DNA from: Conchocele bisecta
Taxonomy: Eukaryota; Mollusca; Bivalvia; Lucinida; Thyasiridae
Assembly (NCBI GenBank): GCA_029237695.1
Contig: CM055278.1
Location: 72,283,188 to 72,347,187 of the forward strand
DNA: 64,000 nucleotides
Reading direction: 5' to 3'
Shown here: piece by piece, positions 7,243 to 27,185 of the stretch
Layout: every line of letters begins with the position of its first letter
How positions within the stretch are numbered: the first letter of the stretch is position 1
Notes under the pieces: model-generated
Seen by the model: only the letters and a program-made list of their open reading frames with translations
What the model was told of the DNA's origin: nothing
Databases searched by the model: none
Position numbers and translations under genes: made by a program

Positions 7243-7306
7243 CTTTGGATGTTGATTTCACCAATACGTTACTTTTAGGATTTGTTTTGTTCATAATTGT
7301 CCAATA

Positions 7307-8613: not shown

Positions 8614-8621
8614 ATTTTATT

Positions 8622-9023: not shown

Positions 9024-9030
9024 TTTCAAT

Positions 9031-9884: not shown

Positions 9885-9918
9885 AGAACTATCACTCAGT
9901 AAGGTAACCTTACTGAAT

Positions 9919-10200
9919 TCATTTTTTACCGTCTGTAAAATCGAAGCCTATCTGTGGTTTTTTGCTAAATTTTAACCCGGGACTTGGTAAAATGTATCCA
10001 AGAGAACTACTTAAAAGAACGAGCCACAATTCACGATTAGGACTTTGGATACTTAAATGAATGATGGCTGTTGTAACAATTGCATATATTATAACTACTT
10101 GAGAAATATATTGAAATTGATTTTTTGGTATTCGTTTACCACAAAATGAAAACTCTTGTTTTTCTATTTTTTCGTTTTCAATTATATCTTGTTCATTCAT
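9919..10200 (-). CDS. Small two-helix membrane protein
   Basis: 93 codons with two hydrophobic segments, about residues 32-51 (ISQVVIIYAIVTTAIIHLSI) and 58-73 (LWLVLLSSSLGYIL), a charged N-terminus and a basic C-terminal tail. No enzymatic motif. Its ATG overlaps the integrase TGA as ATGA on the minus strand. It sits between integrase and penton genes. It might act in particle-membrane or egress functions, but that is only suggested by the membrane segments. Confidence 0.65.
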   Translation of the reverse strand: MNEQDIIENEKIEKQEFSFCGKRIPKNQFQYISQVVIIYAIVTTAIIHLSIQSPNRELWLVLLSSSLGYILPSPGLKFSKKPQIGFDFTDGKK

Positions 10201-12028: not shown

Positions 12029-12428
12029 TATTTAACTAGAGCTCGAATACCTGCTCGCGCACCAACACCAAGTGCGCCACCTAGAACAGCTTTACCTATT
12101 AATGGTAATAATGGAATAAAAATGGTAAAATACCTCCTGTCTAATTTATAATATTTTTCTTTTTCTTAATTGAAATTGATTTTGATACAAGTTGTCTGAG
12201 ATGTTTACGCTTAGGATACAATTTATGTTTCTGATCAGATGTAAGTGTGACATTGCCTTTTAAGAGATTGTGACAACATTCGCAAATACACTTAATTATA
12301 TGATTTGGTGCATTTTTTATTAATTGTTCACGATATTTTTTAGGTTCATTAGCTATAGCCAAAAGCATAGCACCATGTTTTTTAATTAATGGTTTCTTTT
12401 TACTGGTTTTATTCTTGACCTTACCCAT
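12028..12428 (-). CDS. Small basic Polinton protein with Gly-rich hydrophobic tail, frameshifted
   Basis: Open for 95 codons from ATG at 12428, with ICECCHNLLKGNVTLT in the centre and Lys-rich ends. In another frame, coding-like sequence continues (GGILPFLFPLLPLIGKAVLG) to a TAA at 12030-12028. The pattern of a basic helical domain, a KKK linker and a GG plus hydrophobic tail is one I associate with Polinton core/membrane-active proteins. The break is near 12145-12160, in an A-rich stretch. It resembles the 13.2-kb gene in layout. Confidence 0.6.
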
Positions 12429-12484
12429 CTTTATACTAACAATACTTTATATTGAATGATTCAAAATTAATTAATAACTGTATT

Positions 12485-13127
12485 TTATACAGCTAAGTAG
12501 CTTTTAATTTTTGCTCTTAATTCTGGATTTTTAAACGCAAAATCTTTTAGATGTTTTATTTCCTTTTCTTTTTGAATAAGTTTGTTTCTGACAACTTCTT
12601 TGGTCTTAGGAGATCTCAAAGGTGTTTCTTAACGGTGAAAACCTAGCTATTGGATGTTCATCCAATGCATTATATTCCTGTAACAGTTTTTCATGTTCTT
12701 TTGTTGTTTTATTAACAAGTCTAAACCAATTTTTCAATTCAGGTTTATATTTATACTTCTTTTTTTTTGGAGGCTGTCTCTCAAATGAACCCGAATTACT
12801 GGGGAAAGATACATTGTATGATGATCCAGATTTGCTAGAAGTTGATGTAAATGGTAATTGTGGTGATCTAAAGGAAATAGGTGTCGATGTGAACTGAGGT
12901 TTCCCAGTCGATGAGGGTGTATGAAACGGTGATATAGATCTACATGAATTAACAGGACTAGGATTTGTAGACATACTAGACATTGAAGAAAATCTTAAAG
13001 ATTCATTTTGCTTTTTAGTTGTTTTCTTTTTAGTTGTTTTCTTTTGAGATTTTTTATTTCGAGTTTTCTTTTGTTTTTCAATTGTTTTCTTTTTAGTTTG
13101 TTTTTTGGTTAGTTTTCTATTTTTCAC
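12485..13127 (-). CDS. Lys-rich, Ser/Pro-rich protein, frameshifted near the C-terminus
   Basis: 173 open codons from ATG at 13127. The first ~40 residues are almost all K/T/Q/N (TKKKTTKKQ repeats), then a Ser/Thr/Pro-rich linker, then a basic PPKKKKYKYKPELKNWF segment and a helical end. In a shifted frame a further helical stretch (KLIQKEKEIKHLKDFAFKN) runs to a TAA at 12487-12485. The composition fits a DNA-condensing or nuclear structural protein. No family is recognised with certainty. It lies between ATPase/core genes and the small core-like gene. Confidence 0.5.
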
Positions 13128-13175
13128 GTTTTTTGTACCTGTCCAGCGAAGTAAACTTCTAATAATTACACCACC

Positions 13176-13464
13176 TTAAAATCCTCCACCACCAGGTTTT
13201 AATATCATTTTTTTCTTTGTATCATCATCAACTGTAGGATCCGCTAATTGTTTAACATCTTTTTTATTTTTTTCTATAAAACGCACTGTTTGTTTTGGTA
13301 ATTTTATTTTATTTTCAACTATATTTTGAGCAGCTACTGAAAACCATTTCAATATCTCTTTTAACCCAGATTTCAATATTATTCTTTCTTGTAAGTTTAT
13401 GTTGTTCATCACTCAAATTTCTTAAAGCATGAATAATATTTCCTGATGTGTATGAGAAAGCCAT
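13176..13464 (-). CDS. Small Polinton protein with GGGGF end, frameshifted at its start
   Basis: The likely start is ATG at 13464 (MAFSYTSGNIIHALRNLSDE). A shift near 13400 leads into the 78-codon frame containing LKEILKWFSVAAQNIVENKI and KKKMILKPGGGGF. The layout of hydrophobic helix, basic stretch and Gly-rich end parallels the 12.1-kb gene, so the two may be paralogues. In both cases hydrophobic sequence can be read beyond the Gly run. Function unknown. Confidence 0.45.
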
Positions 13465-13506
13465 GTTGGTACCTTGATAGAAAGTACAATACTGATATCT
13501 ATATTA

Positions 13507-14130
13507 CTATATTGGAGAATAAATAGTAGGTCCTCTAACATCCTTATCTGTAATCCAGCGATGAAAAATGTCACTTCTTAAACGAAATTGTTTTTTAATT
13601 CTTGATTGAAAATCAATTAACAAATAACCATGTTCCTGAGAAGTAGCATCATTGTAGGCTGAAATTAAGTGCGGACTTTGCATTTGACGTGATAATGTTT
13701 TAATTTGTAACCCATCACGTTCATTTCTAAATAAAATCATGTACATATTTTGTGTAATATATATTACACTTGAATTTCTATGATGACCTTTTCTTGTAAA
13801 CCACAATTTTATTTTTTCTTCATCTTTTTCTCCTAACATATCATCAAATACTACAAGATGTGGAATTGTTACATCGGATACAATTTCATTTTCATCATCT
13901 GGGATACCTTCAATAAATTTGAGGAAATTGAACTTTTCTTGCATAATAGTATAGATGTGTTGCCATTCTTTGTAACACCATATTACTTTTTCGGGTACAA
14001 TATTAAATAAATCTTTGCGATAATCAATAATCTTTTGTACAATTTCAATTTTTCCACATCCACTTGGACCTGCTATATAAATGTTACAGGGATGTTGAAA
14101 TAACAAAGACAATAGGTCTTCGTTCTCCAT
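13507..14130 (-). CDS. FtsK/HerA-like genome-packaging ATPase (A32-like)
   Basis: 207 codons from ATG at 14130. The Walker A region is IAGPSGCGKIEIV (residues 19-31): Lys27 is present, but the next residue, normally Ser/Thr, is Ile28. Walker B is LVVFDDML with Asp96/Asp97. SVIYITQNMY (121-130) is the sensor strand and RDGLQIKTLSRQM the arginine-containing element. The stretch after QNMY is shorter than I expect for the family and joins directly to MILFRNERDG, suggesting a short in-frame deletion. In related viruses this ATPase pumps the genome into the capsid. The Ile and the deletion suggest this copy is inactive. Confidence 0.88.
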   Translation of the reverse strand: MENEDLLSLLFQHPCNIYIAGPSGCGKIEIVQKIIDYRKDLFNIVPEKVIWCYKEWQHIYTIMQEKFNFLKFIEGIPDDENEIVSDVTIPHLVVFDDMLGEKDEEKIKLWFTRKGHHRNSSVIYITQNMYMILFRNERDGLQIKTLSRQMQSPHLISAYNDATSQEHGYLLIDFQSRIKKQFRLRSDIFHRWITDKDVRGPTIYSPI

Positions 14131-14225
14131 TGTTTACAGTACAAGGTCCAGATGTATAATGATATACTATCATGTGTATAGCAATGTTTTATTTGAAAAG
14201 GAATTCTGTTCGAATAGTTTGGGAT

Positions 14226-14241
14226 GGCCCTGAAAAGGGCC
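14226..14241 (-). terminator. Histone-type 3' stem-loop (a)
   Basis: On the minus strand: GGCCCT, loop TTTC, AGGGCC, preceded by CCAAAC and followed by ATCCCA. It lies 65 nt beyond the stop of the 14.3-kb gene. It matches the replication-dependent histone mRNA hairpin consensus (6-bp stem, 4-nt loop). Confidence 0.85.
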
Positions 14242-14306
14242 GTTTGGGTAAAGGTGCGAGTACTGTTATTCTTATTTTTAAAAAAGACACGAGTACTGGT
14301 ACAATT

Positions 14307-14340
14307 TTAAAAATAAAAAAGACACGAGTACTGGTACAAT

Positions 14341-14384
<44 letters not shown>

Positions 14385-14933
14385 AAAAGGCACGAGTACT
14401 GGTACTTTTTTTGTTTTCGTGGAATCAAATGATTTTCTTTTTTCTGGACGAATGTGTTTACGATGTGCACCAACCCCACTTTTATGTGAATGTATTTTTT
14501 CGTCAACTGTATCACACAGAGCCCTTTCTGCATGTTGACTGATCTGTGCCACTGTTTTCTTGTCCAATTCAAACTTGATAGGCACTTTCAATGGCTTTGT
14601 GTTAAATGTCAAGTCCCGATTTTCACACTGTTTCTCTAGTTTCTTTGATAATGTGTCTGTCATGCGGTCCAGTTGAACATTATGTCGTGATGCGATGTTC
14701 TCTAGTTTCTGTAATATTCTTTCTGTATTGTTGTTCAGTTTCTGTAGTTCTTTCAATATCATGGAATCTTCTTTCTTCTTCTCTATTGGAATGTATACAG
14801 GAACAGTTGGCTGCTGTTGTAGTTGTTGTTGTTGTTGTGGCGGCTGGAAGGTTGGTTGATATATTTCATTCATCGCCTCTGCTAATATATCAAAATCTTG
14901 AGCGGCAAAATCGTAACTTCTGTTGTCAGCCAT
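14307..14933 (-). CDS. Coiled-coil protein with poly-Gln stretch (histone-type mRNA 3' end)
   Basis: 208 codons from ATG at 14933. Order: acidic N-terminus, Gln-rich stretch (residues ~33-43), a coiled coil (~60-100, LKELQKLNNNTERILQKLEN), then a basic segment (HRKHIRPEKRK). The last ~30 residues come from a ~38-nt A run and 3-4 imperfect copies of a ~33-nt unit (GACACGAGTACTGG on the plus strand) that encodes VPVLV-like residues. The true C-terminus is therefore uncertain and probably length-variable. It is driven by promoter module A and ends in a histone-type hairpin. Function unknown. Confidence 0.6.
14342..14379. repeat. Homopolymer T run within a gene end
   Basis: About 38 T on the plus strand, flanked by ~33-bp repeats carrying CACGAGTACTGGTAC (near 14288, 14322 and 14391, with a weaker one near 14255). 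A likely slippage or assembly-error site. Confidence 0.9.
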
Positions 14934-14967
14934 AGTATCGAATGTAAATTAATGATTTTATGATCGT

Positions 14968-15060
14968 CTTTTATACCCATCAGAAGGATTGACCTACTTC
15001 TGGTAGTTTAGAAATTGATAAAAATCAAGTGACCAATCACAGTGTGTCTTACAAAACGAT
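14968..15060 (-). promoter_or_regulatory. Promoter module A, copy 1
   Basis: On the minus strand: inverted CCAAT (15037-15033), core AGAAGTAGGTCAATCC within 15011-14986, then TATAAAAG (14975-14968), ~35 nt before the ATG at 14933. Three further copies share order and spacing. Confidence 0.8.
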
Positions 15061-15065
15061 AGCTG

Positions 15066-15506
15066 CTAACCAATATTCCATTTACAGTACTCTTTTCTCA
15101 CATTTAATTGAGGGATACTGGGATAACTCTTAATAAGTTTAGTTTCTATGTTCAAATCCCTAGAAAAAGGAATTTTATGGCTGTATAGATGAAGCAAAGG
15201 TTTAAGATCCTTGTCAAAGTAAATCTGACTATCCTTCCCGTATGTTCTAGAACTTACTAACCTATAAATTTTATTTTTTTCTATCACAGTTAGCTTTGGA
15301 CAAATACCAAACGGTATAAATCTAGAATTGTTTGTTATGTACCCTATGAAAGGATAATATTGATATTTGGGTGATTTATAAATGTTTACATTATTAATAG
15401 TGTATTCTCCGTTTACTATGCCTATAGTACAATTTTTGAGAAAATCGAAACATTTACATTCTTCGACTTCCGGATGCTGATCACAATGTTTTATTAGTTG
15501 ATCCAT
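15066..15506 (-). CDS. Accessory Polinton protein, unknown
   Basis: I start this 146-codon gene at ATG 15506 (MDQLIKHCDQHPEVEECKCF) rather than at the upstream in-frame ATG at 15656. The intervening DNA is a copy of promoter module B, whose TATA box (15599-15592) would lie inside the longer reading. The protein has a Cys-containing N-terminus, many aromatic residues (YQYYPFIGYITNNSRFIPFG) and no motif I recognise. No histone-type hairpin or AATAAA lies in the short space before the next promoter, so its 3' end is unclear. Confidence 0.6.
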   Translation of the reverse strand: MDQLIKHCDQHPEVEECKCFDFLKNCTIGIVNGEYTINNVNIYKSPKYQYYPFIGYITNNSRFIPFGICPKLTVIEKNKIYRLVSSRTYGKDSQIYFDKDLKPLLHLYSHKIPFSRDLNIETKLIKSYPSIPQLNVRKEYCKWNIG

Positions 15507-15543
15507 TTTAGCAGGGTTGTACTCTGAACAATGTAATGCTTTC

Positions 15544-15638
15544 GCTTCAGAGTTCAGTAGACTAATGATGATCATATGGAATTTGCGGCTTCTTTTATAA
15601 ACGTCACGATGTAACGATAGTATAGAAGCTGTTGCAAA
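15544..15638 (-). promoter_or_regulatory. Promoter module B, copy 1
   Basis: A 95-bp stretch that differs from 17536-17630 at nine positions by eye. On the minus strand it has a CRE-like CGTGACGT, then TATAAAAG, then the leader CCGCAAATTCCATATGATC. It precedes the 15.1-kb gene. Confidence 0.8.
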
Positions 15639-15725
15639 ATGCTTAATGTTTAGCAACTAATGATACAATATACAAAGTTATTAGGATATAAATTGCAAAG
15701 TAATTTTTTCGTAATAATGTGTGGT

Positions 15726-15741
15726 GGCCCTGAAAAGGGCC
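15726..15741 (-). terminator. Histone-type 3' stem-loop (b)
   Basis: Minus strand: GCAAAAAC, then GGCCCTTTTCAGGGCC, then ACCACA. This is the closest flank match to histone genes (A-rich before, ACC(A)CA after). It starts 30 nt after the stop of the 15.8-kb gene. A purine-rich ACGAAAAAATTA follows about 14 nt later. Confidence 0.9.
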
Positions 15742-15771
15742 GTTTTTGCTTAGAGTGTACAACTGTACAAA

Positions 15772-16044
15772 CTAATATTCAATGGTAGTACGACGCCATT
15801 TGTTGTTTGATTCTCGAGTTTTAACTCTCAAAACGCCTATAGTGTCAGGTTTTGCTTCTGTCGTAAAACTCTTGCCGTCCTCCATTTCAAATTCTTTGTA
15901 AGCAGGTTTTGGCTTTTCCTTTATTTTCCTCAACAGGTCAGCCGTAACCATTTGCAACATTTCTATGTCTTTCTGCATCGACCCTACGACTTCAACCAAA
16001 TCTGCGATCCGCCTTCCCATCATATTGCTTCGCTCGGTATTCAT
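15772..16044 (-). CDS. Short coiled-coil accessory protein
   Basis: 90 codons from ATG at 16044. Residues ~10-43 (MGRRIADLVEVVGSMQKDIE and on) have heptad-like hydrophobic spacing. The C-terminus is mixed charge with KTRESNNKWRRTT. No family recognised. Driven by promoter module A and followed by a histone-type hairpin. Divergent from the 16.4-kb gene. Confidence 0.6.
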   Translation of the reverse strand: MNTERSNMMGRRIADLVEVVGSMQKDIEMLQMVTADLLRKIKEKPKPAYKEFEMEDGKSFTTEAKPDTIGVLRVKTRESNNKWRRTTIEY

Positions 16045-16093
16045 TTCTTTGAGTGTTCAATGAAACATGTGAAGTATGTGTTAAAAACACATG

Positions 16094-16187
16094 CTTTTAT
16101 ACCCACCCATCAAACGGATTGACCTACTTTTGGTAGTTTAGTCATTTTTCAGATTTTCGTCCAATCAGAAAGCGTGTTGTAAAACGC
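16094..16187 (-). promoter_or_regulatory. Promoter module A, copy 2
   Basis: Minus strand: CGCTTTCTGATTGG (inverted CCAAT, 16165-16161), core CAAAAGTAGGTCAATCC (within 16141-16116), TATAAAAG (16101-16094). Long match to copies 3 and 4, including the ACGAAAATCTGAAAAATGAC spacer. Confidence 0.85.
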
Positions 16188-16209
16188 GTTTTGTGAAAAA
16201 AGTTTGTTT

Positions 16210-16340
16210 ACACAAGCTTGGCTGTAAAAACGGATTGAAAATCATCCAATGAGAGGGGTAGAATCCTTAACCAATCAAATCCTCTAATTTTTAGCCAATG
16301 AAATCATAGCTGAAATCATTTCTGGATCTAAAACGTATAG
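16210..16340 (+). promoter_or_regulatory. Triple CCAAT-box upstream region
   Basis: Three plus-strand CCAAT boxes (ATCCAATGAG, ACCAATCAAA, GCCAATGAAA) at about 16238-16310, upstream of the 16.4-kb gene. CCAAT boxes are common in histone promoters, which fits the histone-type 3' end of this gene. No strong TATA box is visible. Confidence 0.55.
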
Positions 16341-16370
16341 TATTCATTCTATTCATTCTTACACACCAGA

Positions 16371-16571
16371 ATGCAGATCAAGAAATTCTTCCACCGTTTG
16401 AGAAACATTGTATTCTCCAGGAAAAATGATGTTAATGAAGAAAAAGAGAGAAATAAAGAATTATTACAACAATTCTTTGCAAGACGTGGTTATCATTGGC
16501 CTTCCAAACAAAAAATTGTTTGGAAAGTTACATTGAATAACTTATATCCTGATCTGTCTGAATTCTATTAG
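16371..16571 (+). CDS. Small basic accessory protein (66 aa)
   Basis: MQIKKFFHRLRNIVFSRKND opens a 66-codon frame with a basic amphipathic N-terminus, a charged helical middle (EEKERNKELLQQFFARRG) and an aromatic end. No motif known to me. It is short, but support comes from the CCAAT-rich upstream region and a histone-type hairpin starting 13 nt after the stop with a clear downstream element. Confidence 0.65.
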   Translation: MQIKKFFHRLRNIVFSRKNDVNEEKERNKELLQQFFARRGYHWPSKQKIVWKVTLNNLYPDLSEFY

Positions 16572-16584
16572 ACAGAGATCAAAC

Positions 16585-16600
16585 GGTCCTTTTCAGGACC
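16585..16600 (+). terminator. Histone-type 3' stem-loop (c) with downstream element
   Basis: CAAAC, then GGTCCTTTTCAGGACC, then ACAATA. The third stem pair is T-A instead of C-G, a compensated change. CCAGAAAGAAA at 16611-16621 closely resembles the histone downstream element (CAAGAAAGA) bound by U7 snRNA, 10-11 nt after the hairpin. Confidence 0.9.
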
Positions 16601-16714
16601 ACAATATTTTCCAGAAAGAAACACTTGCATTTTATAAATCATATGAGTTAACCATATAAATTATAAAAATGATAAATAACAAATCACGTTTTTAAAATTA
16701 AGCTTATTTATTTA

Positions 16715-16751
16715 ACAATATTTTATTGAACAACAATATATTTACAACATG
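16715..16751 (-). terminator. Shared polyadenylation module (copy 2)
   Basis: Minus strand AATAAA at 16727-16722 in a context nearly identical to the TIR modules. It follows the 16.8-kb gene. Confidence 0.75.
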
Positions 16752-16811
16752 TAATACATAGTGTCTATTCAAAATTGTATTAATTTAACAAGACAAATAA
16801 ATCAATCGAAT

Positions 16812-17532
16812 CTAAAAGTCAATTTTCATCTTCTTGACTGGAACCGCAATTTTCCTCTTCTTGATTTGAACACTCGGTTCATCTTGACGTTTACGTTTAC
16901 GATTGTTCACTGGTTTCTCTATGGGCTTAACATCCACTGTGTGAGGCTTGGGTTTCTGGTCACAATCACAAGCCCAAGTGATTTCGATTTACAGATGAAA
17001 CATCCATCATACATAACATTTCTTGGCAGCTTCATATGACTCTCTTCGTTGTAATAAGACATGAATTTTCCAACACACAGGTCTTGGGTAATACTAGGAG
17101 AATCCAAAAATTGAACTTCATGAGAATATGGATTCACAAACACATCCATGTACTTTCCTTGTAGCTTCTGGCTACATTTATTAGCCCAATGCTCCGTTGA
17201 TTGACAAATGTAACATCTGTTAGGTGATATTTCGCCCCCTCCATATTTCTCATCGATGCTGAATTTTGTAAACCTCTTTCCTGTAGAAAAATCAGGTACT
17301 CAGAGTCGCCCGAATAATTGTAAGATGTAAACGATCCAACAAAGTTCCCATTATGTTTTATAGAATAGGTTTTCGGTATGTTGCTGAATTCAACTTCATG
17401 AGTAAACGGATTTACATATAAATTCATTTCGCATCCTTTGTGCCAATATTTCATACTTTCGAAATAGTCAGCAAAATGTTCCTCGTGTTTTTGTAGTTGA
17501 ATGGAAGATCGATCTGTCGCTTGAGAGTCCAT
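16812..17532 (-). CDS. Two-repeat accessory protein with basic nuclear-localisation-like tail, frameshifted
   Basis: Starts ATG 17532. Two related segments follow each other: residues with YVNPFTHEVEFSN (first, frame 17532-17134) and FVNPYSHEVQFLD (second, frame 17149-16919). Each is followed by a GSFTSYN / GKFMSYYN motif and a later S-(I/L)-GL-(I/V) stretch, so the protein is an internal duplication of ~110 residues. Frames shift near 17140 and again near 16950. The last segment is basic (NRKRKRQDEPSVQIKKRK), suggesting nuclear import, and ends TAG at 16814-16812. Driven by promoter module B; ends with AATAAA. Family unknown. Confidence 0.6.
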
Positions 17533-17535
17533 GTC

Positions 17536-17630
17536 GCTTCAGAGTTTAGTAGACTAATGATGACCATATGGAATTTATGGCTTCTTTTATAGACGTCACG
17601 GTTTAACGATAGTATATAAGCTGTTGTAAA
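17536..17630. promoter_or_regulatory. Promoter module B, copy 2 (bidirectional)
   Basis: Near-duplicate of 15544-15638. Minus-strand TATAAAAG (17591-17584) serves the 16.8-kb gene. A plus-strand TATATAAG (within 17611-17620) faces the polymerase N-terminal frame at 17660. CGTGACGT lies between. Confidence 0.75.
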
Positions 17631-17659
17631 TTGATTAATACTTTATTATAAAATTCAAC

Positions 17660-18073
17660 ATGCCACTTGTACCATACTCGGACACCGAGAGTGAAACCGA
17701 AGAGTCACCAGATGTTAGAAGATTTTATGATCTTATACAAGAAAAAAGTCGAAGATCAAGAAAATTCAGAACTGAATCATCAGTTTTTAAAACAACATTC
17801 AAGAAATTTGATGTAGACGAACACCCTCAAAATTTCGTTGGGGTATTATTTGATGATATCGTTCATCAAATCATCGAACGAATTGATGGTGATCCACACG
17901 ACAAAATCAGGGTAACATTAAATCATCCTGCATTAAAGATGGGGATACCGATTCCATTCTTGAATGTTGAAGATTTGAATGGGAACATATTGTTACAAGA
18001 AATAGAAAAAGTTATACAATCGAATATGGATTTTAATTTGAACGATGGTGACATTACGCAAACATTGTATTAG
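17660..18073 (+). CDS. N-terminal part of the Polinton DNA polymerase B (cut off)
   Basis: 137 codons ending TAG. The segment DDIVHQIIERIDGDPHDKIR followed by LKMGIPIPFLN and LLQEIEKVIQSNMDFNLND matches the N-terminal domain that precedes the polymerase proper in many Polinton PolB proteins. The normal continuation is the block at 20641 onward (MPTGSGRKK... CLARAIVVGKCHAD). Here ~2.6 kb of non-coding DNA intervenes, entering at the perfect inverted repeat ATTACGCAAACA (18053-18064). The last ~7 codons and the stop are therefore probably insert sequence. The acidic Ser-rich start (DTESETEESPD) is Polinton-typical. An independent small gene cannot be excluded. Confidence 0.65.
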   Translation: MPLVPYSDTESETEESPDVRRFYDLIQEKSRRSRKFRTESSVFKTTFKKFDVDEHPQNFVGVLFDDIVHQIIERIDGDPHDKIRVTLNHPALKMGIPIPFLNVEDLNGNILLQEIEKVIQSNMDFNLNDGDITQTLY

Positions 18074-19499
18074 CGAGCCTACCTCACCAAACCCACGGTT
18101 ACCTATGTAAACAGCGGGTTTGGTGAGGTTGCCGCGCAATAGGTAATGCGGTCAAATAGGTCACGATGCAGTGACTATTTTCAATCAATAACTTATGTTG
18201 TAAGCGATTGTAATGTGTATTTTCAATATTTATATTATTAAAATGTATCATATCGGTACCCCTTTAAGTAATATTTGTATATTTTAAATGTAATGATTTT
18301 GTCATGAAGCGCATGAATATAAGTATTAATTAATCCAGTTTATATTGAGGCAAATCACACAGCCTAAAAACATAGTGCTGGAGTATACACCATAGTATCG
18401 TATATTATTCATAAGTATATCACTATTAAACATTAATTACAATATGTATGCATATTATTAAAACAGTAGATGCTACCGCTGTTTCGCTGTATGTGATATT
18501 TATAACAAAATATTTTTTTTATTCGTCCGCGTACGGATTTCTGTCACACAAAGCGCCATTTTCAGTTCATATTTTGACCTGTGCATATGAACCGGACTAA
18601 GTTTAAACAACGCTCGATTCCGTCCAATTCAGATTTCTCTGCAGAATGTTCAGACTAACTACATATTAAGTAATGTTGCTAAATAAGTGTTAACGGCTGG
18701 AACATGGTTATCACTAAAAGGAAGAAACCACAGTCGTATTATTGAAAAATAAGATTTACCTGAGACCTCATGGAGGCCGCCATTAATCCAGTGTAAACAA
18801 TAAACCTTGTGATCCCATTTCCTGAGTAGCCCCCGCTTAGTGAAACGATGTGCTAATCATGATATTATGTTCCCCAATAATTGGAAACGGTTTGAATTTC
18901 TCGGTAAAAACTACGAAAGTCATAACAAAATAACGATGTATATTTAACATTGGATACGCTTAAACGGTATTTACTCTCTCATCGGATCGTCAGTTGTCGT
19001 CGATAGCGATTTAACGTACTGATCTGGTCTTAATTTATTGTCAACTTTCAACGCCATTTACAGAATATATGGTTAATTTTGGAAATAAATAACGGCAAAT
19101 TACGATGACGTCTGCTCTGAAATATCTGTCAACATGCGGACGTAATTTAAGGAAATCGATTATATTTTAAGGCTACATCTGTGACTAATTACGAATTTAT
19201 GTATGGTCTTTGGCTACACCCGACACATTACACAGATCTAGTTGTAAATACACATCGCTTTGTGTGGGGAAAAAATCGATAATGCGTAGTTGTGTGTGAC
19301 GAGGTGTTGATCTGATGACACCACACAGCTGTGACCCTTAGGCAATGTTTTGAAATTGACGTGTCGTTTTGATGTGTGCCGCAACACCTCACTGTCGGAG
19401 ACAACATGACAATTAACGATATACCGGTACTCTCGATTATACACAGATCTATTAGACGGCTGGATTATTTAAAATAAAGAGTAGTTCAGTACACCTTCG

Positions 19500-19711
19500 C
19501 CGATATTGTTTTTAGAAAATCAGTAATATTTTCCGTAAATGGTGTTGAAAAGTTGACAAAAATTCTATCACCGTATTTAGTTGTGCCGATATTGTTTTAA
19601 AAAATCAGTAATTTTTTTCCGTAAATGGTGTTGAAAATTGACAAAATATATAGCCGCATTTCTCCGATATTCGTTTAGAAAATCACCAATATTTTCTGTA
19701 AATGGTGTTGA
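19500..19711 (+). repeat. ~80-bp tandem repeat, about 2.6 copies
   Basis: Units contain GATATTGTTTTTAGAAAATC and TCCGTAAATGGTGTTGA, starting near 19500, 19583 and 19661. Confidence 0.75.
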
Positions 19712-20225
19712 CACAAAATGCAGCGTTCACGCGGAATTCAAATAAAATACAAAATAATAATTTAATAAATAGCCGCCGATGGCTACTGTGTTTGCGGCCA
19801 GTGAATTCTGGTCGTGGTAGCCACAGGCGCAGTTCGAACAGTGTTGTGAGCAGATGGAGGACAATAATTATTTCAAATTCATAAAAAAATGTTTGCTGTC
19901 CGAAAATTAATTAATTGTGACAGCCAAAAAAAAAAGATTTTGGGACAGTAAAACATTATATGGTATAGACAGTATAGACAGTACCTCAAACTATAAAAAA
20001 ACAGTAACAACTGTCTGTGTATATACTTACTAAACTGTCTGTGTATATATTACTTAAACTTAAAACATCAGTAACAAACTGTCTGTGTATATATTAGTTA
20101 AGGACAGACACTTTAATTGTTGGTAAGTTTCTATCAATTTATAGGTATTTTTATTAAAATCATAAAATTGTGCAAATATTAAAAAATATTAAAATCACAA
20201 AAATAATATATATGGAGAATTTATT

Positions 20226-20330
20226 TTTATACCACGTCGAGGTTTGAACCCCCGAACCTTTCGGGAATCGGTAATTAAATCATTGAAGTCGGCGACCTTA
20301 ACCTCACGACTGTTGCGCCATTTATGACAA
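20226..20330 (-). other. tRNA-like or tRNA-derived SINE relic
   Basis: The minus strand has an A-box-like TGGCGCAACAGTCGTGAGGT and, ~60 nt later, a B-box-like GGGGTTCAAACCTCG. A possible variable-arm hairpin CCCGAAAGGTTCGGG lies between. This resembles a type II tRNA (Leu/Ser) body, but the acceptor stem is not convincing, so I call it a relic. Confidence 0.45.
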
Positions 20331-20640
20331 TCACAGTTATACAGAAGTGCTATCAGTATTACGCCACCATTTGAACGTAATAATTATTAAATTATTTGCA
20401 ACTCCATCTACAACAATACCGTTACAGAGATACGCTATTGAAACAACATGTATTAGTACCCATAACATAACAAAGTAATGTATCATTATATATCACAGGA
20501 GATAGCTTAAAACTATATATCCTAATTATAAACAGAACAATCCGCTTGGCTCGTATGAAAATAGTTCGCGTGATATTGATTATCTCCCTTGCCGAAAGTA
20601 GTTCAGTGATTTATTAATTCCAAATAAGACGTGTTTGCGT

Positions 20641-23600
20641 AATGAGATGACAATCGAAACAACGTTTACCAAAATGCCAACAGGTTCTGGAAGAAAGAAG
20701 ATGACCTCTGAAATTGATTCTCGAGTTTTCACGAAAAAAAAGAAAACTGTTGTGAAAATTGAAAATTCTAAAGACAATATGTGCTTAGCCAGGGCTATTG
20801 TTGTTGGAAAATGTCATGCTGATAGAGAAGTTTCTTCAACATGGAATATACGATGGAATGTAATTCGACAGAAGTTGGAATTTCACCACAAAAAGCTTGT
20901 GGAATTGAAGAATATAAGAAAATACAACAATATATGTATCCAGAATATGTGATCAAGATTCATCAACAACATGTGAAAACAGAATTGTTGTTTGAATATC
21001 CAGAAATTCAGTCATACAGCAAAGTGATACATGTATTCTATAATCAAGATCATTATGACTGTATTACAAATATTGTTGGATTTCTTGGCTGTCATTACTA
21101 TTGTGAGATGTGTAATGTTGGATACCAAAATCGTGAAACACATATATGCCCTTCTTCTTGTAAGGCATGTCGTTCCAAAACAAAATGTCATGCGGTAGAT
21201 TGTATCAAGTGTAAAGATTGCCTTAGGACATTTTATAGTGGAACGTGTTTTGCAAATCACAAACAAATTGAAGGACGACAAAAGAAATCAATTTGTCAAC
21301 TCATAAAATGTTGCGGTAAATGTGGAGGGCAGTTTGTCGATTCCAAGAAGAATCATACATGTAAAGGAAAGAAGAAATGTAAATTTTGTAAAAAGATTGT
21401 TAATTTTGACCATAAATGTCATATTCAGCAGTATAAAAGCAAAACTGAAGAAGATGATCAGGAACCGTTTTTCATATTTTATGATTTCGAATGTCAACAA
21501 GACACTGGTGTACACATTCCTAACTATTGTATTACACACAGAGCTTGTGATGAATGTATCAATGAATCATTAGAATTTAATTGTGAATGTTGTGGTCGGT
21601 TTCCTGAAGGACGAGAAGTAGTATTTGAAGGAAAAAATACTTTGACAGAATTTTGTAATTGGTTGTTTTCAAAACAACATAAAGGTGCTACAGCTATTGC
21701 CCATAATTTCAAAGCGTATGATGGTCAGTTCATACTTCATCATCTCATTGAAAGGGGGGTGTTACAACCGAAGGTAATAATGAACGGTAATAACATCATG
21801 GTTATGGAAGCTGGAGGTATACGATTGATTGATTCATATAATTTCATAAATTCAGGATTGGCAAAATTTCCAGAAACCTTTGAATTGAAAGAAATGGCTA
21901 AGGGATATTTTCCACATTGGGCAAATACTGATAAATTTGCCGCTTATGTTGGTCCATACGTTGGTGTCTCTTATTATAAACCAGATTCAATGGGGATAAC
22001 TGCTAGGGAAAAGTTTTTATCATGGTATAACGAACGTGTGAAAAACAACGATTGTTTCAATTTCAAACAAGAAATGGAAAAATATTGTCGATCGGATGTA
22101 GATATTTTGAGACGTGGTTGTGGAGAATTCAGGAAGGTATTCATGGAATATGGGGGGGGGGTATAGATCCGTTTCTAGAAGCCAGTACAATCGCTGACGC
22201 ATGTAACAAAGATTGGCGTAACAAATATATGCCAAGTAATCAGATCGGAATTATTTCAAGCAGAGATCCGATTAAACGCAAATTTTCAATGAAAGGTATT
22301 CGATGGATGCAAAGTATTGCACACGAAAACAATATTGTTATCCAACATGCAATAAATGGTGGTGAATACCAAATTGGTCCTTATACTGTAGATGGGTTTC
22401 ACAAAGAATCAAATACTATCTATGAGTTTCTCGGTGACCTGTGGCATGGTTGTCCTAAATGTTACCCAAATCGTAATCTAAAAAAACCCGGTAAATGGAG
22501 AATCAATGCAAAATTTATATTCTCAAACATTTGAAAGATTGGAATATTTCAATGTAAGTGGTTACAAAATTCACACTATATGGGAACATGAGTTTGATTT
22601 AAAAATGAAAACTGATAAAGAATACAAAAAGTTGATCGAACAATTATTTTCAAACTGTGATCCGATTGAACCTAGGGAAGGATTGTTTGGTGGACGTTGT
22701 AATGCTATAAAAATTAAATATGATATTGAAGAAAATTCAGATGATGAAATCAAATATATTGATATTTGTTCATTGTATCCATTTGTATGTAAACACAAAG
22801 AATATCCGATAGGACACCCCGATATTTTAACAAAAGAAAATATTGATATAGAAAACATCCGACAGTATGAGGGTTTGATAAAATGTAAAATTCTCCCTCC
22901 GGACAATCTATTTCATCCAGTGTTACCAACACATTGTAATAACAAACTCATGTTTCCATTATGTAGAACATGTGCAGAAGAAAGTTCTACAAAGTGTACA
23001 CATACAATTGAAGAAAGAGCTTTGGTTGGTACATGGGTGTCAATAGAATTGTTTAAAGCATTGGACTGTGGCTATACGTTGTTAGACGCATATGAAGTAT
23101 GGCATTTTTCGGAAAAAAAAATCTAATGATTTTTTCTCGGGGTATGTGGACAATTTTCTTAAAATCAAACAAGAAGCAAGTGGTTATCCAGGATGGTGTG
23201 TAACAGAAAAAGACAAAGAAAAATTTGTTAAGGACTATGAAGAAGCTGAAGGTATTTGTCTTGATCCATCAAACATACAAACAAATACGGGGCGTAGAGC
23301 ATTTGCCAAGATTATGTTAAATTGCTTATGGGGTAAATTGGCACAACGTGAAATCATGACACAAACGGAATACATCAATAATCCTTCAAAATATTTTGAT
23401 TTGATTTCAAATCCATGTAAAACACGTAGAAATATTTGATAATGAATGTCCATTCATATTGGTTAACTATGAAACTAGACTTGAACACATTGAATCCCAT
23501 GCAACATCAAACGTTATAGTGGGATCATATGTAACAGCATATGCAAGACTTGAACTATACAGTGTTTTGGAAAAGTTAAATGAGAGTGTCTTGTATTTCG

Positions 23601-24039
23601 ATACAGACAGTTTTATGTACATACACAAACATAATTCCTGGAACCCCCCCCCCCCCCATTATCAATAGCAGGCTTGGTAAATGGACTGATGAAGAACCCG
23701 GAAATAAAATAATAAGTTTTGGGGAGGGGAATAGGACCAAAGAGTTATGCATACAAGTTGCTAACAAAAGCTGGGGAAATAAAATCCAAATGCAAAGTTA
23801 AAGGACTGACACTCGATTACAACACAAGTCAAGTAGTTAACTTTGACACGTATGTTCAATGTGCAGAGGACCGAAGTACCGAAGTGAAAGTAGTATATGC
23901 ATGTAAAATCCGGAGACATGCAAACAGAACAGTAACGAGTGAATGTCAAAGCAAGACATTTAGGTCTGTGTACACAAAACGTGTCATTGTTGACAATTTC
24001 AATACTGTACCATACGGCTATAAAACATTGAGACTTTGA
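20641..24039 (+). pseudogene. Protein-primed DNA polymerase B (Polinton polB), multiply frameshifted
   Basis: All hallmark motifs are present in order but in different frames. There is the N-terminal NMCLARAIVVGKCHAD block, a Cys/His-rich region (CEMCNVGY...CPSSCKAC...CIKCKDC) and Exo I FFIFYDFECQ. Exo II is AHNFKAYDGQFIL and Exo III YCRSDVDIL. Pol A is DICSLYPFV, Pol B KIMLNCLWGK and Pol C YFDTDS. The gene continues to a TGA near 24039. Frame breaks occur near 20875, at the G9 run at ~22151, near 22525, at the A9 run at ~23115, near 23437, at the C15 run at ~23645 and near 23735. The family replicates the linear element from a protein primer at the TIR ends. The catalytic residues are intact, so the damage looks recent or is partly assembly error. 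Its N-terminal segment is displaced to 17660-18073. Confidence 0.92.
20981..21015 (+). repeat. 35-bp direct repeat, polymerase copy
   Basis: Identical to 24061-24095. Begins AGAATTGTTGTTTGAATATC. Here it encodes part of the polymerase N-terminal region. Confidence 0.9.
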
Positions 24040-24060
24040 TTGAATATACACGGTGTATTA

Positions 24061-24095
24061 AGAATTGTTGTTTGAATATCCAGAAATTCAGTCAT
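24061..24095 (+). repeat. 35-bp direct repeat, F-box gene copy
   Basis: Exact copy of 20981-21015, placed so that its last bases supply the A and T of the ATG (24094-24096) of the F-box-like gene. Confidence 0.9.
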
Positions 24096-24351
24096 GGACA
24101 CATTTAATAACTACAGTCGGTTAGCTGTGCTACCAGCGGAGTTACTGGTTATGTTAATAAAATTGTATCTGTCGGAGAGTAATGCCAAAAGTCTCGCACG
24201 CACTGACGAGCGTGCAAAACGCATCATTGAAGATGATGCGTTTTGGACTGTCATGCTAAGGAAAGACTTTAGGGATCACTCATTCACAGTTTACAACATG
24301 AGGCCATTTGGTGTATATAAATTTTCGCAAGATATAATACACAATTTTTAA
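24094..24351 (+). CDS. F-box-like protein (85 aa)
   Basis: Residues ~11-59 follow the F-box spacing: AVLPAELLVMLIKLYL, then AKSLARTDERAKRIIEDDAF and WTVMLRKDF, ending in the W..L...DF motif seen in many F-box proteins. No substrate-binding repeats follow; the C-terminus is a short aromatic tail. F-box proteins recruit targets to SCF ubiquitin ligases through Skp1. A virus-encoded one could redirect host protein turnover, which is inference. The start ATG lies at the end of a 35-bp duplicate of polymerase sequence. No hairpin or AATAAA follows before the next promoter. Confidence 0.6.
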   Translation: MDTFNNYSRLAVLPAELLVMLIKLYLSESNAKSLARTDERAKRIIEDDAFWTVMLRKDFRDHSFTVYNMRPFGVYKFSQDIIHNF

Positions 24352-24360
24352 CTGTAAAAA

Positions 24361-24442
24361 ACGTGTTTACAACACGCTTTCTGATTGGACGAACATCTGA
24401 AAAATGACTAAGCTATCAAAAGTAGGTCAATCCGTATAAAAG
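24361..24442 (+). promoter_or_regulatory. Promoter module A, copy 3
   Basis: ACACGCTTTCTGATTGG (ATTGG at 24384-24388), core CAAAAGTAGGTCAATCC (ends 24433), TATAAAAG (24435-24442). The following leader (24478-24506, AGCATTACATTGTTCAGAGT) matches the leader of the 15.1-kb module-B gene, so the two promoter classes have recombined. Confidence 0.85.
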
Positions 24443-24522
24443 ACGATCATAAAATCATTAATTTACATTCTATGAGAAGCATTACATTGTTCAGAGTATA
24501 ACCCTGACTCTACACATTTAGG

Positions 24523-24930
24523 ATGCTAACTTTAATATATTTATTTCATGAGTACGTGGTTAGGAATTTAATTCCCTACTATAATTTGAAATTTGAAGCA
24601 CGAGAATCCTCGAATAGCTTCGTATATAACTGGAACAAGTTCGATGATTTGATGAACCATATCAACAGGACACATGTTTCATCGAATACGATGTCGAAGC
24701 CTACAGAAAACTGGGATAATGATGAGAGAGCGAGTTTACAACCACAGCAAGAAGACTGGGATCAGGAGATCCGACGAGCTCCGACACCATCATTTGCGAT
24801 TCCTGGAAAACCCAGCAAAAGGTCTACACACAGATTTCTCTTAACATGTAGAAGCTGTGGATCCAGGGACTGTGGTGGTCATAAAAAATACATTGAAAGA
24901 GTGAACAAGTATGATAAACAGCAAACTTGA
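24523..24930 (+). CDS. Accessory protein with C-terminal zinc-binding motif
   Basis: 135 codons from ATG at 24523. A later ATG (residue 57, MSKPTENWDNDE) is an alternative start. Hydrophobic N-terminus, acidic/Gln-rich middle, then C109-x2-C112-x4-C117-x2-H120 (LTCRSCGSRDCGGHKK), a probable zinc site. Driven by promoter module A; a histone-type hairpin starts 20 nt after the stop. Function unknown. Confidence 0.6.
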   Translation: MLTLIYLFHEYVVRNLIPYYNLKFEARESSNSFVYNWNKFDDLMNHINRTHVSSNTMSKPTENWDNDERASLQPQQEDWDQEIRRAPTPSFAIPGKPSKRSTHRFLLTCRSCGSRDCGGHKKYIERVNKYDKQQT

Positions 24931-24950
24931 ATTAGACGATCAAGACAAAA

Positions 24951-24966
24951 GGCCCTTTTCAGGGCC
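24951..24966 (+). terminator. Histone-type 3' stem-loop (d)
   Basis: GACAAAA, then GGCCCTTTTCAGGGCC, then AATACA. The purine-rich GAATAGAAAAAA (24981-24992) begins 14 nt after the hairpin. No AATAAA nearby. Confidence 0.88.
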
Positions 24967-25114
24967 AATACAAATATTTAGAATAGAAAAAACTTATAAT
25001 CAGTTGTACCTATATAAACGTTTTACATTTTGTCATAAGCCATTATATTCAAGGTATTCGCTCTAGAAACAACAAATATTATACAGTACTTTTAGATAAT
25101 AAACAATAAAAATT

Positions 25115-25558
25115 ATGAGGCATAATTATGAGTTGTGGTTACAAAACGATGTTTGTCTGATAAAGAAATCCCGAGAAATACCTAGACAAAGAAAGACAAT
25201 ACATGACACATTCAATAAATGTATGGTTGAACAACTTCAATTATTAATTAAAAAAGAAGTAAATGACAATTGTTATGGATGTCAGGTTGAACATCCAAGT
25301 CAAGTACGACATCAACTGTGCTTATTCACAGATCAAGATGAACAAACAGATTTATTCATATTGCCAGCTCTACAGAAATTAGATCCCTATAAAATTATGG
25401 AAGAATGGTATCCAATTCTCAAAGATATGACATTGGACGATCAAGAGAAATTGGAAGCATACAGACTGTGGGTACAAATTAAAAACAAAATCAGTTTTAG
25501 ACCCAATGAATCGTGGTTGGAACAGTTGAAGAAACAAGTCAAACAATCCTGGAAATAG
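25115..25558 (+). CDS. Accessory protein with C-x2-C-x3-H-x5-H-x2-C motif
   Basis: 147 codons. The centre holds C53, C56, H60, H66 and C69 (CYGCQVEHPSQVRHQLC), a probable zinc site. I recall similar CxGCxxxHPSQ motifs in small proteins of invertebrate Polintons. The rest is helical and charged, with a Trp-rich C-terminal half. A TATA-like TATATAAACG lies ~100 nt upstream. No hairpin follows; TATAAAAG (near 25574) for the next gene begins soon after the stop. Confidence 0.65.
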   Translation: MRHNYELWLQNDVCLIKKSREIPRQRKTIHDTFNKCMVEQLQLLIKKEVNDNCYGCQVEHPSQVRHQLCLFTDQDEQTDLFILPALQKLDPYKIMEEWYPILKDMTLDDQEKLEAYRLWVQIKNKISFRPNESWLEQLKKQVKQSWK

Positions 25559-25634
25559 ATTGATATTAAAGACTATAAAAGTAGGAACGGATTATAACTG
25601 AATCATTCTAGGAATAGACACAGTTGAAGAAACA

Positions 25635-26099
25635 ATGAATCCTCTGACAGATCTATTAAATCATATGGCAATCAGGAAACCAGTAACAATGAATCCTCTG
25701 ACAGATCTATTAAATCACATAGCATACAGGAAAGCATTGATACTTGCTTTCAAACTAAAAGTATCAAATGAACAATATCTTACAACCAGGATCATCAAGG
25801 ATGAATTAGAGAAAATAGAGATGTTTGATGAGTTCAAGGAAGCCCTATTAGTAACAACGGGGTTCTTGAAAGATTCAAGGATTAAAGTAGAACAATTAAC
25901 ATTTGAACAATGGAGAAACGAAGTTGTTGAAAATGACAATATTGTGAATTTCTTATTTAGACGCTGTAAGAGAGAGATTGTACCAATGGAAATAGTACAG
26001 ATTAGTGAGACTGAATCAATGTGTGTGTGCTCCCATTGTTCACGCTTCATGGATAGTGATCACGATACATGGACAGAGATCATGCCTCTTGAATGTTAA
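25635..26099 (+). CDS. Accessory protein with duplicated N-terminus and Cys/His end
   Basis: 154 codons. The first 18 codons are a near-exact direct duplication (MNPLTDLLNH occurs at residues 1 and 19; period 54 nt), so the original start is probably the second ATG at 25689. The middle is helical. The end has CVCSHCSRFMDSDHD, a possible zinc site. A TATAAAAG box lies ~60 nt upstream. The shared AATAAA module (26130-26135) follows 31 nt after the stop. Function unknown. Confidence 0.65.
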   Translation: MNPLTDLLNHMAIRKPVTMNPLTDLLNHIAYRKALILAFKLKVSNEQYLTTRIIKDELEKIEMFDEFKEALLVTTGFLKDSRIKVEQLTFEQWRNEVVENDNIVNFLFRRCKREIVPMEIVQISETESMCVCSHCSRFMDSDHDTWTEIMPLEC

Positions 26100-26106
26100 A
26101 CATACA

Positions 26107-26142
26107 TGTTGTAAAATATGTTATTGTTCAATAAAATATTAT
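26107..26142 (+). terminator. Shared polyadenylation module (copy 3)
   Basis: TGTTATTGTTCAATAAAATA with AATAAA at 26130-26135, mirror image of the left TIR copy. Serves the 25.6-kb gene. Confidence 0.75.
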
Positions 26143-26369
26143 TAAAACTTTACATGTTTCGTATTCAATTTTACCCACCATAAATTGAAAATTACCAATA
26201 TATTGATTTACAATCAATATTTATTTTCATTAACTTTTGTCAATATTAGAGTTGTCAGAAGTGGATGAAAATTATTTCTAGGACATTTTCATATGTATTT
26301 GATAATATTGGAGTTGTCAAAAATATTTGAAAATTATATACAGGAACAGTACACCCCTAGGATATTACA

Positions 26370-26462
26370 AAACGCGTTTACAAGGCGCTTTCTGATTGGT
26401 CGAAAATCTGAAAAATTACTAAACTATCAAAAGTAGGTCAATCCTTCTGATGTGTATAAAAG
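26370..26462 (+). promoter_or_regulatory. Promoter module A, copy 4
   Basis: GCGCTTTCTGATTGG (ATTGG 26395-26399), core CAAAAGTAGGTCAATCC (ends 26444), TATAAAAG (26455-26462), then the ATG at 26521. Part of the cassette unique to the right TIR. Confidence 0.85.
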
Positions 26463-26520
26463 TAAAAAACATACAGCTATATTTCATTAGTCATTCAACT
26501 GTTCAACCAACTACATAAGA

Positions 26521-26733
26521 ATGCAGAAGAACGGTAAATGCTCTATGTGCAGAGAGTCCTGTTACATAGAGTGTAGAAAATGTTATGCCTTGTTGGACAC
26601 TCACGGGGAAGAACACAATTGTCCAGAGCTCGACGAAGGCTTTTTTGAAGAAGAGGACCTGAAAAACCTCGAAATTTGTGAGGCCTGCCAAATAGTCGTC
26701 GATTGTATGTGGAGTAACCTGAACACTACATAG
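26521..26733 (+). CDS. Small Cys-rich protein encoded inside the right TIR
   Basis: 70 codons with Cys at 7, 10, 14, 18, 21, 34, 53, 56 and 62 and His at 28 and 32. The arrangement CSMCRESCYIECRKC and ICEAC suggests two zinc-binding units separated by an acidic stretch (GFFEEEDLKN). Small DNA tumour viruses use acidic/CxxC proteins to act on the cell cycle. I see no exact LxCxE, so such a role is only a speculation. Promoter module A upstream, histone-type hairpin starting 17 nt after the stop. Confidence 0.65.
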   Translation: MQKNGKCSMCRESCYIECRKCYALLDTHGEEHNCPELDEGFFEEEDLKNLEICEACQIVVDCMWSNLNTT

Positions 26734-26749
26734 TTTACTAAAAGACAAC

Positions 26750-26765
26750 AGCCCTTTTCAGGGCT
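26750..26765 (+). terminator. Histone-type 3' stem-loop (e) with downstream element
   Basis: GACAAC, then AGCCCTTTTCAGGGCT, then ATACAC. The outer pair is A-T instead of G-C, a compensated change. CAAGAAATG at 26777-26785 resembles the histone downstream element, 11 nt after the hairpin. Confidence 0.85.
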
Positions 26766-27064
26766 ATACACTTTCTCAAGAAATGAATATTACATACTGC
26801 TCTTATTGGTTCAGGGTGACACTATAGCGTGATACAAGAAGTTTCCACCCCGGATAAAATTCACGAATCTCCATCAAAATGGTTCAGGGTACCACTATGG
26901 GGTACTTTTAACCACTATAGCGTAATACAAGAAGTTTACACCCCGGATAAAATTCACGAATCAACAAAATCGTTCAGGGGTGCCACTATGGTACGGTTTT
27001 TAACCACTATAGCGTAATACAAGAAGTTTCCACCCCTGATAATGGGAGTAATAAGGGGTGCCAC

Positions 27065-27168
27065 CTATGGTACGGTTTTTTAACATGTGTATTTTACATA
27101 GACAATTTTACCGGTGCAAGGGTAAAATTGTCTATGGAAAATACACATGTTAAAAAACCGTACCATAG
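27065..27168. repeat. Terminal hairpin, right end
   Basis: Same 104-bp foldback as at the left end, also 17 bp inside the terminus. Confidence 0.9.
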
Positions 27169-27185
27169 TGGCACCCATTACTACT

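Follow-up and report, generated by a model that had tools for sequence, protein, structure and literature searches.

Genes with histone-type 3' stem-loops and histone H2A-like promoters in a Polinton of the bivalve Conchocele bisecta

We analysed a 64,000-nucleotide (nt) stretch of the genome of the bivalve Conchocele bisecta (GenBank assembly GCA_029237695.1, contig CM055278.1, positions 72,283,188 to 72,347,187 of the forward strand), hereafter the window. It holds a 21.2-kb element bounded by terminal inverted repeats, which can be identified as a Polinton from the genes that it carries. Within this element lie five small genes, each followed by a hairpin resembling the 3' stem-loop of metazoan replication-dependent histone genes, and four of the five are preceded by sequence resembling the promoter of the host's histone H2A genes. 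The five are called stem-loop genes here and are numbered along the element:

Stem-loop gene 1, 14307..14933, minus strand: 208 amino acids (aa); meets a poly-A tract close to its end
Stem-loop gene 2, 15772..16044, minus strand: 90 aa
Stem-loop gene 3, 16371..16571, plus strand: 66 aa; C-terminal NLYPDLSEF motif
Stem-loop gene 4, 24523..24930, plus strand: 135 aa; zinc-knuckle-like Cys/His cluster, read by eye
Stem-loop gene 5, 26521..26733, plus strand: 70 aa; acidic, with three CxxC

Their hairpins were scored with RF00032, the Rfam model of the histone 3' stem-loop, for which the curators' cut-off is 34 bits and which is independent of the pattern by which the hairpins had been noticed:

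14226..14241, minus strand: GGCCCT-TTTC-AGGGCC, 65 nt past open reading frame (ORF) 14307-14933; 33.8 bits, E 5.5e-6
15726..15741, minus strand: GGCCCT-TTTC-AGGGCC, 30 nt past ORF 15772-16044; 39.9 bits, E 3e-8
16585..16600, plus strand: GGTCCT-TTTC-AGGACC, 13 nt past gene 3; 36.3 bits, E 6.4e-7
24951..24966, plus strand: GGCCCT-TTTC-AGGGCC, 20 nt past gene 4; 32.6 bits, E 1.5e-5
26750..26765, plus strand: AGCCCT-TTTC-AGGGCT, 16 nt past gene 5; 33.5 bits, E 7.5e-6

A first-pass annotation of the window had reported five such hairpins in the sense orientation, 13-65 nt after small genes and with an A immediately 3' of the stem. Direct reading and the RF00032 matches at all five confirm their places and strands, the distances are 13, 16, 20, 30 and 65 nt, and an A directly follows every stem. 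Two of the five pass the RF00032 cut-off and the other three fall within 1.4 bits below it; up to E 1, the model matches nothing else in the whole window. Perfect hairpins with a TTTC loop number five in the 21.2-kb element against 0.0005 expected under a first-order Markov model, a calculation whose word set, unlike the Rfam model, was picked after the finding had been seen. Within this element the hairpins sit just behind stop codons: all five are in sense and follow the stop of an ORF with 60 aa or more by no more than 70 nt, against 6.4% of the element-strand that lies in such positions (binomial P 1e-6). Raising the limit to at least 80 aa leaves three of five (P 0.001) and to at least 100 aa two of five (P 0.011), fewer being counted because two of the genes are just 66 and 70 aa long.

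Could these simply be generic transcript-ending hairpins, such as those at the gene ends of mimivirus-like giant viruses? Palindromes near gene ends in a large DNA element would fit that description. In those viruses, however, hairpin sequences are variable and most genes have one, whereas here a single histone-type hairpin stands at five genes, four of them with histone-like promoters, and none of the window's 13 other ORFs, core genes included, has a stem-loop within 260 nt. We find this explanation scarcely credible. An origin of the five hairpins by one recent duplication was also considered and dropped, most of their flanks being near random identity. Some flanks do exceed the random 95th percentile of 0.40 (downstream of 14226, 15726 and 24951, 0.47-0.62; downstream of 16585 and 26750, 0.42; two upstream pairs, 0.47 and 0.45), and therefore some of the hairpin ends appear to share ancestry.

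The 5' ends of the genes were compared with the H2A promoter of host locus L082, on histone contig C809:

14968..15009, minus strand: gene 1 promoter block; weak, short similarity to the H2A promoter of the host (82% over 44 bp, E 3.8e-5)
16094..16202, minus strand: promoter of gene 2; 84.4% over 109 bp against the host H2A promoter, E 8e-29; CCAAT box, AAGTAGGTCAATCC and TATA box
16184..16370, plus strand: upstream region of gene 3, divergent; three sense CCAAT boxes, no sense H2A match
24358..24435, plus strand: H2A-like promoter of gene 4; 83% over 78 bp, E 1e-18
26367..26444, plus strand: H2A-like promoter of gene 5; 87% over 78 bp, E 5e-23

At E<=1e-3 the L082 promoter finds four matches only in the 64-kb window, and these lie at genes 2, 5, 4 and 1 (E 2e-28, 5e-23, 1e-18 and 4e-5). 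Against the H2A promoter of a second host locus, L004, the same genes score 107, 83, 67 and 34 and gene 3 scores 20 in sense; the upstream regions of nine other Polinton genes, in either sense, score 14-31. The word GTAGGTCAA occurs four times in the 64 kb, always in sense and always ahead of a stem-loop gene; the host H2A promoters carry AAGTAGGTCAATCC or GTAGGTCACACC. The homology to the host histone H2A promoter indicated by these alignments is strong for three genes and weak for one, and an H2A-like promoter at four of the very genes that have the hairpin is the strongest support for a histone-type organization, going beyond what the first-pass annotation had seen. Homology by itself gives no direction, and the host H2A array might instead have got its promoter from a Polinton. 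We regard such a reverse flow as very unlikely: host H2B promoters share the AAGTAGGTCAATCC core together with GATTGG and TATA in otherwise different sequence, which fits an old histone element of the host. We infer that the promoter was probably transferred from host to Polinton.

A second promoter type, CGTGACGTYTATAAAAGAAGCC, was seen at 15576-15640 and 17533-17719, ahead of the minus-strand ORFs 15066-15575 and 17134-17532. Neither ORF has a stem-loop within 260 nt, and the element seems to contain two gene classes.

What do the stem-loop genes encode? No Pfam family scores above its cut-off for any of the five ORFs, histone families give no Pfam match up to E 1, and PDB and PHROGs searches yield nothing of known function. 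The protein collection searched holds no homologue of gene 2. Gene 3 belongs to a small family with three homologues (P0121-P0123) on other contigs, and all proteins of the family terminate in NLYPDLSEF plus one residue, P0121 having a second, similar copy of the motif; it looks like a short binding motif. Among intact, ungapped copies from the host genome, the ratio of nonsynonymous to synonymous substitution (dN/dS) has a median of 0.36 for gene 2 (18 distinct copies, 130 pairs) and 0.26 for gene 3 (12 distinct copies, 54 pairs), values that indicate purifying selection on the intact copies of both genes. The LxCxE motif occurs in retinoblastoma-binding viral proteins. It is absent from the stem-loop proteins; ORF 15066-15575 carries one (LHCSE), and part of the start region of that ORF is seen again, on reading by eye, in the gene 4 leader.

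All copies described here come from one genome (G000; 1.89 Gb, 1196 contigs). A search of it with the packaging ATPase of the element gave 239 match pieces, in some cases two halves of the same gene, from the 150 of 967 candidates that were scored, and from this count we estimate that the genome contains more than 100 Polinton copies. In the RF00032 search, 75 of 257,327 first-look candidates were scored; all 75 match, 68 of them over the cut-off, and one of 14 control genomes gave a match, below the cut-off. Fifty-four of the 75 loci were read and comprise five histone loci (L004, L008-L011), 48 stretches with Polinton proteins (the window included) and one locus, L012, with a gene-2-type flank only. 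Four pairs of loci overlap (L006/L015, L013/L022, L014/L033 and L019/L025). Locus L047 was considered as a distant Polinton family and dropped, its low protein identities being due to frame breaks.

The first-pass annotation had made its case depend on enrichment of the hairpin in related Polintons. In 20 copies picked by their ATPase (74-97% identical to that of the window) without regard to hairpins, a sense hairpin stands 90 to 177 nt ahead of the ATPase start in all 20; 16 of these are perfect, three have one base changed and one has two. Across 46 Polinton stretches (four pairs of which overlap), the L082 promoter matches 44 places in 35 stretches, and a sense hairpin follows within 1.5 kb at 44 of 44 places versus 41% of random places. 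The hairpin follows gene 3 in 25 of 31 distinct copies, the other six having one base changed (two copies), a lost loop base (one), a deletion (two) or an internal duplication (one). Mean pairwise distance across these 31 copies rises from 0.029 within the hairpin to 0.130 from +25 to +54 and 0.245 beyond +55, and is 0.081 over the 120 coding bases ahead of it, making the hairpin the most conserved stretch of the gene-3 alignment. Gene 2 is followed by the hairpin in 38 of 43 copies; of the five that lack it, four are partial duplicates of a single kind. Here the mean hairpin distance is 0.103 over all copies, raised by those that lack a hairpin, and 0.003 among the 38 that have one, the latter value partly reflecting ascertainment in that most of those loci were found via the hairpin. 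A partial gene 2 duplicate without a stem-loop lies beside a copy with one in L034, L039, L049 and L050, which points to a sub-lineage.

Stem changes with pairing kept, as the annotation had described, are borne out by a set of 10 distinct hairpin types drawn from 142 pattern-matched instances, overlapping stretches included. In this set 96.7% of cells pair, a level equalled in two of 500 shuffles and never above 70% in slid controls; the pattern by which hairpins were gathered prescribes a purine or a pyrimidine for every stem position and leaves out hairpins that break it, which favours pairing and so counts the other way. Three of the six pairs change on both sides (G-C to A-U once and C-G to U-A twice), as many as in 37 of 500 shuffles. 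The second pair is G-C in all 10 types; passages of PMC12775136 describe SLBP as specifically recognising the G of the second pair (G7) and contacting the A-rich 5' flank.

Beyond the stem, two of the genes carry purine-rich sequence like the histone downstream element:

16612..16621, plus strand: CAGAAAGAAA, starting 12 nt past the stem of the 16585 hairpin
26777..26785, plus strand: CAAGAAATG, starting 12 nt past the stem of the 26750 hairpin

A host H4 gene has CAAGAAAGAAAC at a distance similar to that of CAGAAAGAAA. The earlier claim of such an element in at least two genes stands for these two, the element being weaker in the remaining three. The purine fraction 10-24 nt past the stem averages 0.67 against 0.50 (P 0.006, this being one of three spans examined). 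With the stem excluded, the 60 nt past the 16585 hairpin score 41 against the tail of host H4 (shuffle maximum 34) and the tail past the 15726 hairpin scores 39 against that of host H2A (shuffle maximum 30); the tail of gene 4 reaches 34 with a host tail against a shuffle maximum of 33, and the tails of genes 1 and 5 do not exceed the shuffle maxima against any host tail tried.

The best histone genes of the host are 100% (H4), 95% (H2A), 91-100% (H2B) and 78% (a partial H3) identical to the queries, and SLBP-domain exons are found at three places. The host histone stem-loops that were read mostly have a TTTT loop (TTTC in the H2A locus L079) whereas those of Polintons have TTTC, with one exception; the Polinton hairpins are therefore not fresh copies from the main histone array. 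The histone loci read yielded no Polinton protein.

Passages of PMC7614891 describe how metazoan histone pre-mRNA is cut after the SLBP-bound stem-loop with U7 small nuclear RNA (snRNA) pairing to the downstream element, and how SLBP goes up ahead of S phase and favours the export, translation and stability of the message; passages of PMC1794435 attribute 70% of the S-phase increase in core histones to the stem-loop mechanism. The stem-loop genes share with metazoan replication-dependent histone genes a six-pair stem, a four-base loop, an A-rich 5' flank, an A after the stem, a purine-rich element about 12 nt on, CCAAT and TATA boxes, and a TATA box near the start codon. They differ in that their ORFs are non-histone and lie in a Polinton, and in the TTTC loop as against the TTTT of most host genes. 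For the 3' ends, the annotation's view is upheld by the Rfam model, orientation, position after genes, compensating changes, recurrence, partial resemblance to host tails and the presence of a host SLBP gene. It is very likely, in our judgement, that these five genes with histone-type 3' ends, four of them with H2A-like promoters, are expressed through the histone-gene system of the host, in S phase and without poly(A). That they are built as histone-gene mimics, each a movable H2A-type promoter, a foreign ORF and a stem-loop with a U7 element, active in S phase, bypassing polyadenylation and ending with the decay of histone messages, we think probable. Both ends of a host histone gene would have been captured around foreign ORFs. 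Host histone transcription factors would then act on the cassette promoter, SLBP would bind the hairpin, the U7 small nuclear ribonucleoprotein (snRNP) would pair with the purine-rich element about 12 nt downstream, CPSF73 would cut between the two, and the message would be stable only during DNA replication. S-phase timing, U7 snRNP cleavage and the absence of poly(A) are what the sequence would lead one to expect.

Several observations weigh against expression through the histone-gene system. At the 5' end, gene 3 lacks a sense H2A-like promoter, and the match at gene 1 is weak on its own since two of 100 shuffled L082 queries reach E<=1e-3 (smallest 1.3e-4); its score of 34 is also near that of the best control, 31, upstream of 17660, which is itself slightly above its shuffles. 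The host gave 48 H2A matches, a set with many broken ones; of the six loci read, four have this promoter while L078 and L079 do not. Two of the five genes show the downstream element clearly and three show a weaker one, and a U7 snRNA search gave no match anywhere, controls included, and so says nothing on presence. The number of pair types among the hairpins is unremarkable, being reached by 207 of 500 shuffles. Every copy comes from a single genome, many copies have broken genes, and the hairpin is lost or changed in 4 of 20 (before the ATPase), 6 of 31 (gene 3) and 5 of 43 (gene 2). Finally, the first-pass annotation was wrong to state that no hairpin has a nearby AATAAA, for one lies 32 nt past the 14226 hairpin (minus strand, 14188-14193); it may permit an additional polyadenylated message or serve as a back-up site.

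Is the hairpin, then, a relic of capture that now matters little, with messages mainly polyadenylated at a downstream AATAAA or ended both ways? The signal past the gene 1 hairpin recurs in the stretch inspected in 16 of 20 sampled copies, and AATAAA also lies 131 and 195 nt past two other hairpins. According to passages of PMC2781718, Drosophila histone genes without SLBP are polyadenylated from cryptic sites. Yet in two of the five stem-loop genes neither AATAAA nor ATTAAA occurs up to 260 nt from the stop, and one host H4 gene likewise has AATAAA 47 nt past its own stem-loop. The compensating pair differences, the conservation of the hairpin above all else in the gene-3 alignment and the purifying selection indicated for genes 2 and 3 also speak for hairpins in use, and we consider the relic explanation unlikely.

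How did five unrelated genes come to share their ends? Pairwise alignment of the five units reveals two strong common blocks, the promoter (about 45-100 bp, in four units) and the hairpin with its near flank; other matches between units are short or weak, and the encoded proteins are unrelated. One unit interrupts a terminal repeat:

26360..26808, plus strand: insertion of roughly 450 bp into the right terminal repeat, comprising promoter, gene 5, stem-loop and downstream element as a single unit; absent from the left repeat

Alignment of the two repeats, otherwise about 95-99% alike, places the start of this insert just ahead of the promoter block and its end just past the downstream element. 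In some other copies the interval separating genes 2 and 1 holds a unit of this kind: a gene-5-like one, with the hairpin GGCTCT/AGAGCC, in L007 and in L014/L033 (one place), and a gene-4-like one in L019/L025 (one place), L024, L029, L030 and L031. The unit of promoter, ORF and stem-loop thus appears to move within and between elements. That the promoter and hairpin are the sole strong blocks common to the cassettes, whose place varies between copies and in one case is inside a single terminal repeat, might mean that both act as DNA, serving cassette recombination or movement with no role in RNA processing. Hairpins that are in sense, lie after genes and fit the histone model, flanks included, argue otherwise, as do blocks that match the host histone promoter and, in part, tail with their order kept; we hold a DNA role alone to be most improbable.

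Expression through the histone-gene system would make the element the first genetic parasite known to exploit replication-dependent histone machinery at both ends of its genes. Passages of PMC2781718 call the histone stem-loop unique to histone mRNAs; the pathway would extend to mobile elements and parasites, and would offer a ready means of timing parasite genes to DNA replication. Such genes could escape notice in poly(A)-selected RNA data, and the cassettes would give SLBP and U7 natural substrates other than histone messages. The cell-cycle timing of Polinton activity and the roles of the unnamed accessory proteins become testable. The annotation knew of no such report for Polintons, and in the open-access literature, most subscription journals lying outside this coverage, we likewise found no transposon or virus, Polintons and adintoviruses included, reported to carry promoters or 3' ends of histone type. 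The nearest parallel is provided by the "Histoid" genes of adomaviruses: passages of PMC11071296 describe a sequence from the clam Tegillarca that combines RepE1 and Histoid with adintovirus-like virion proteins. Both cases involve clam-associated adintovirus relatives with histone-derived material. Histoid systems carry a histone-like protein, whereas the Polinton cassettes carry control ends without one.

The element itself is delimited as follows:

5967..27185, unstranded: Polinton (Maverick) element, 21.2 kb between terminal inverted repeats
5961-5966 and 27186-27191: candidate 6-bp target duplication AGAATA/AGTATA, 5/6 bases identical, read by eye

In Pfam searches it encodes a retrovirus-type integrase (rve, E 3.7e-13, with Chromo, at 10197-11312), an adenovirus-like protease (Peptidase_C5, E 1e-5, over the cut-off), a packaging ATPase (Pox_A32, E 9e-4, below the cut-off) and a piece of PolB (DNA_pol_B_2, E 5e-20, at 22506-23126), the PolB region being spread over several ORFs. 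The ATPase has 138 homologues, many with PF04665 among the 120 listed. ORF 20841-22166, a neighbour taken as a further PolB piece, has no Pfam match; of the candidates for major and minor capsid proteins, 7906-8613 has no Pfam match and 9135-9884 none above the cut-off, and 7356-8885 is a series of short minus-strand ORFs. Because inverted repeats enclose a protease, an integrase with chromodomain, a packaging ATPase and a PolB piece, we assign 5967..27185 to the Polintons; protease, retrovirus-type integrase with chromodomain, packaging ATPase, PolB and long terminal inverted repeats are features that it shares with Polintons/Mavericks and adintoviruses.

Searches for Polinton relatives elsewhere (integrase against IMG/VR; ATPase and gene-3 alignments against IMG/VR and GTDB contigs) confirmed none. 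The exact hairpin pattern occurs in three IMG/VR contigs with unconvincing Polinton proteins (two matches, E 0.14 and 0.52), and a second hairpin variant in no IMG/VR contig. The left terminal repeat holds a near-perfect hairpin of about 104 nt (5984-6087) with a weak MIR8643 match far below the cut-off; weak matches to Rfam microRNA models in the scan of the window all lie below their own cut-offs. An ATPase relative that is 54% identical, P0057, is deposited under a metagenome-assembled genome of Candidatus Thiodiazotropha taylori, a clam symbiont, and is probably host DNA in a symbiont assembly.

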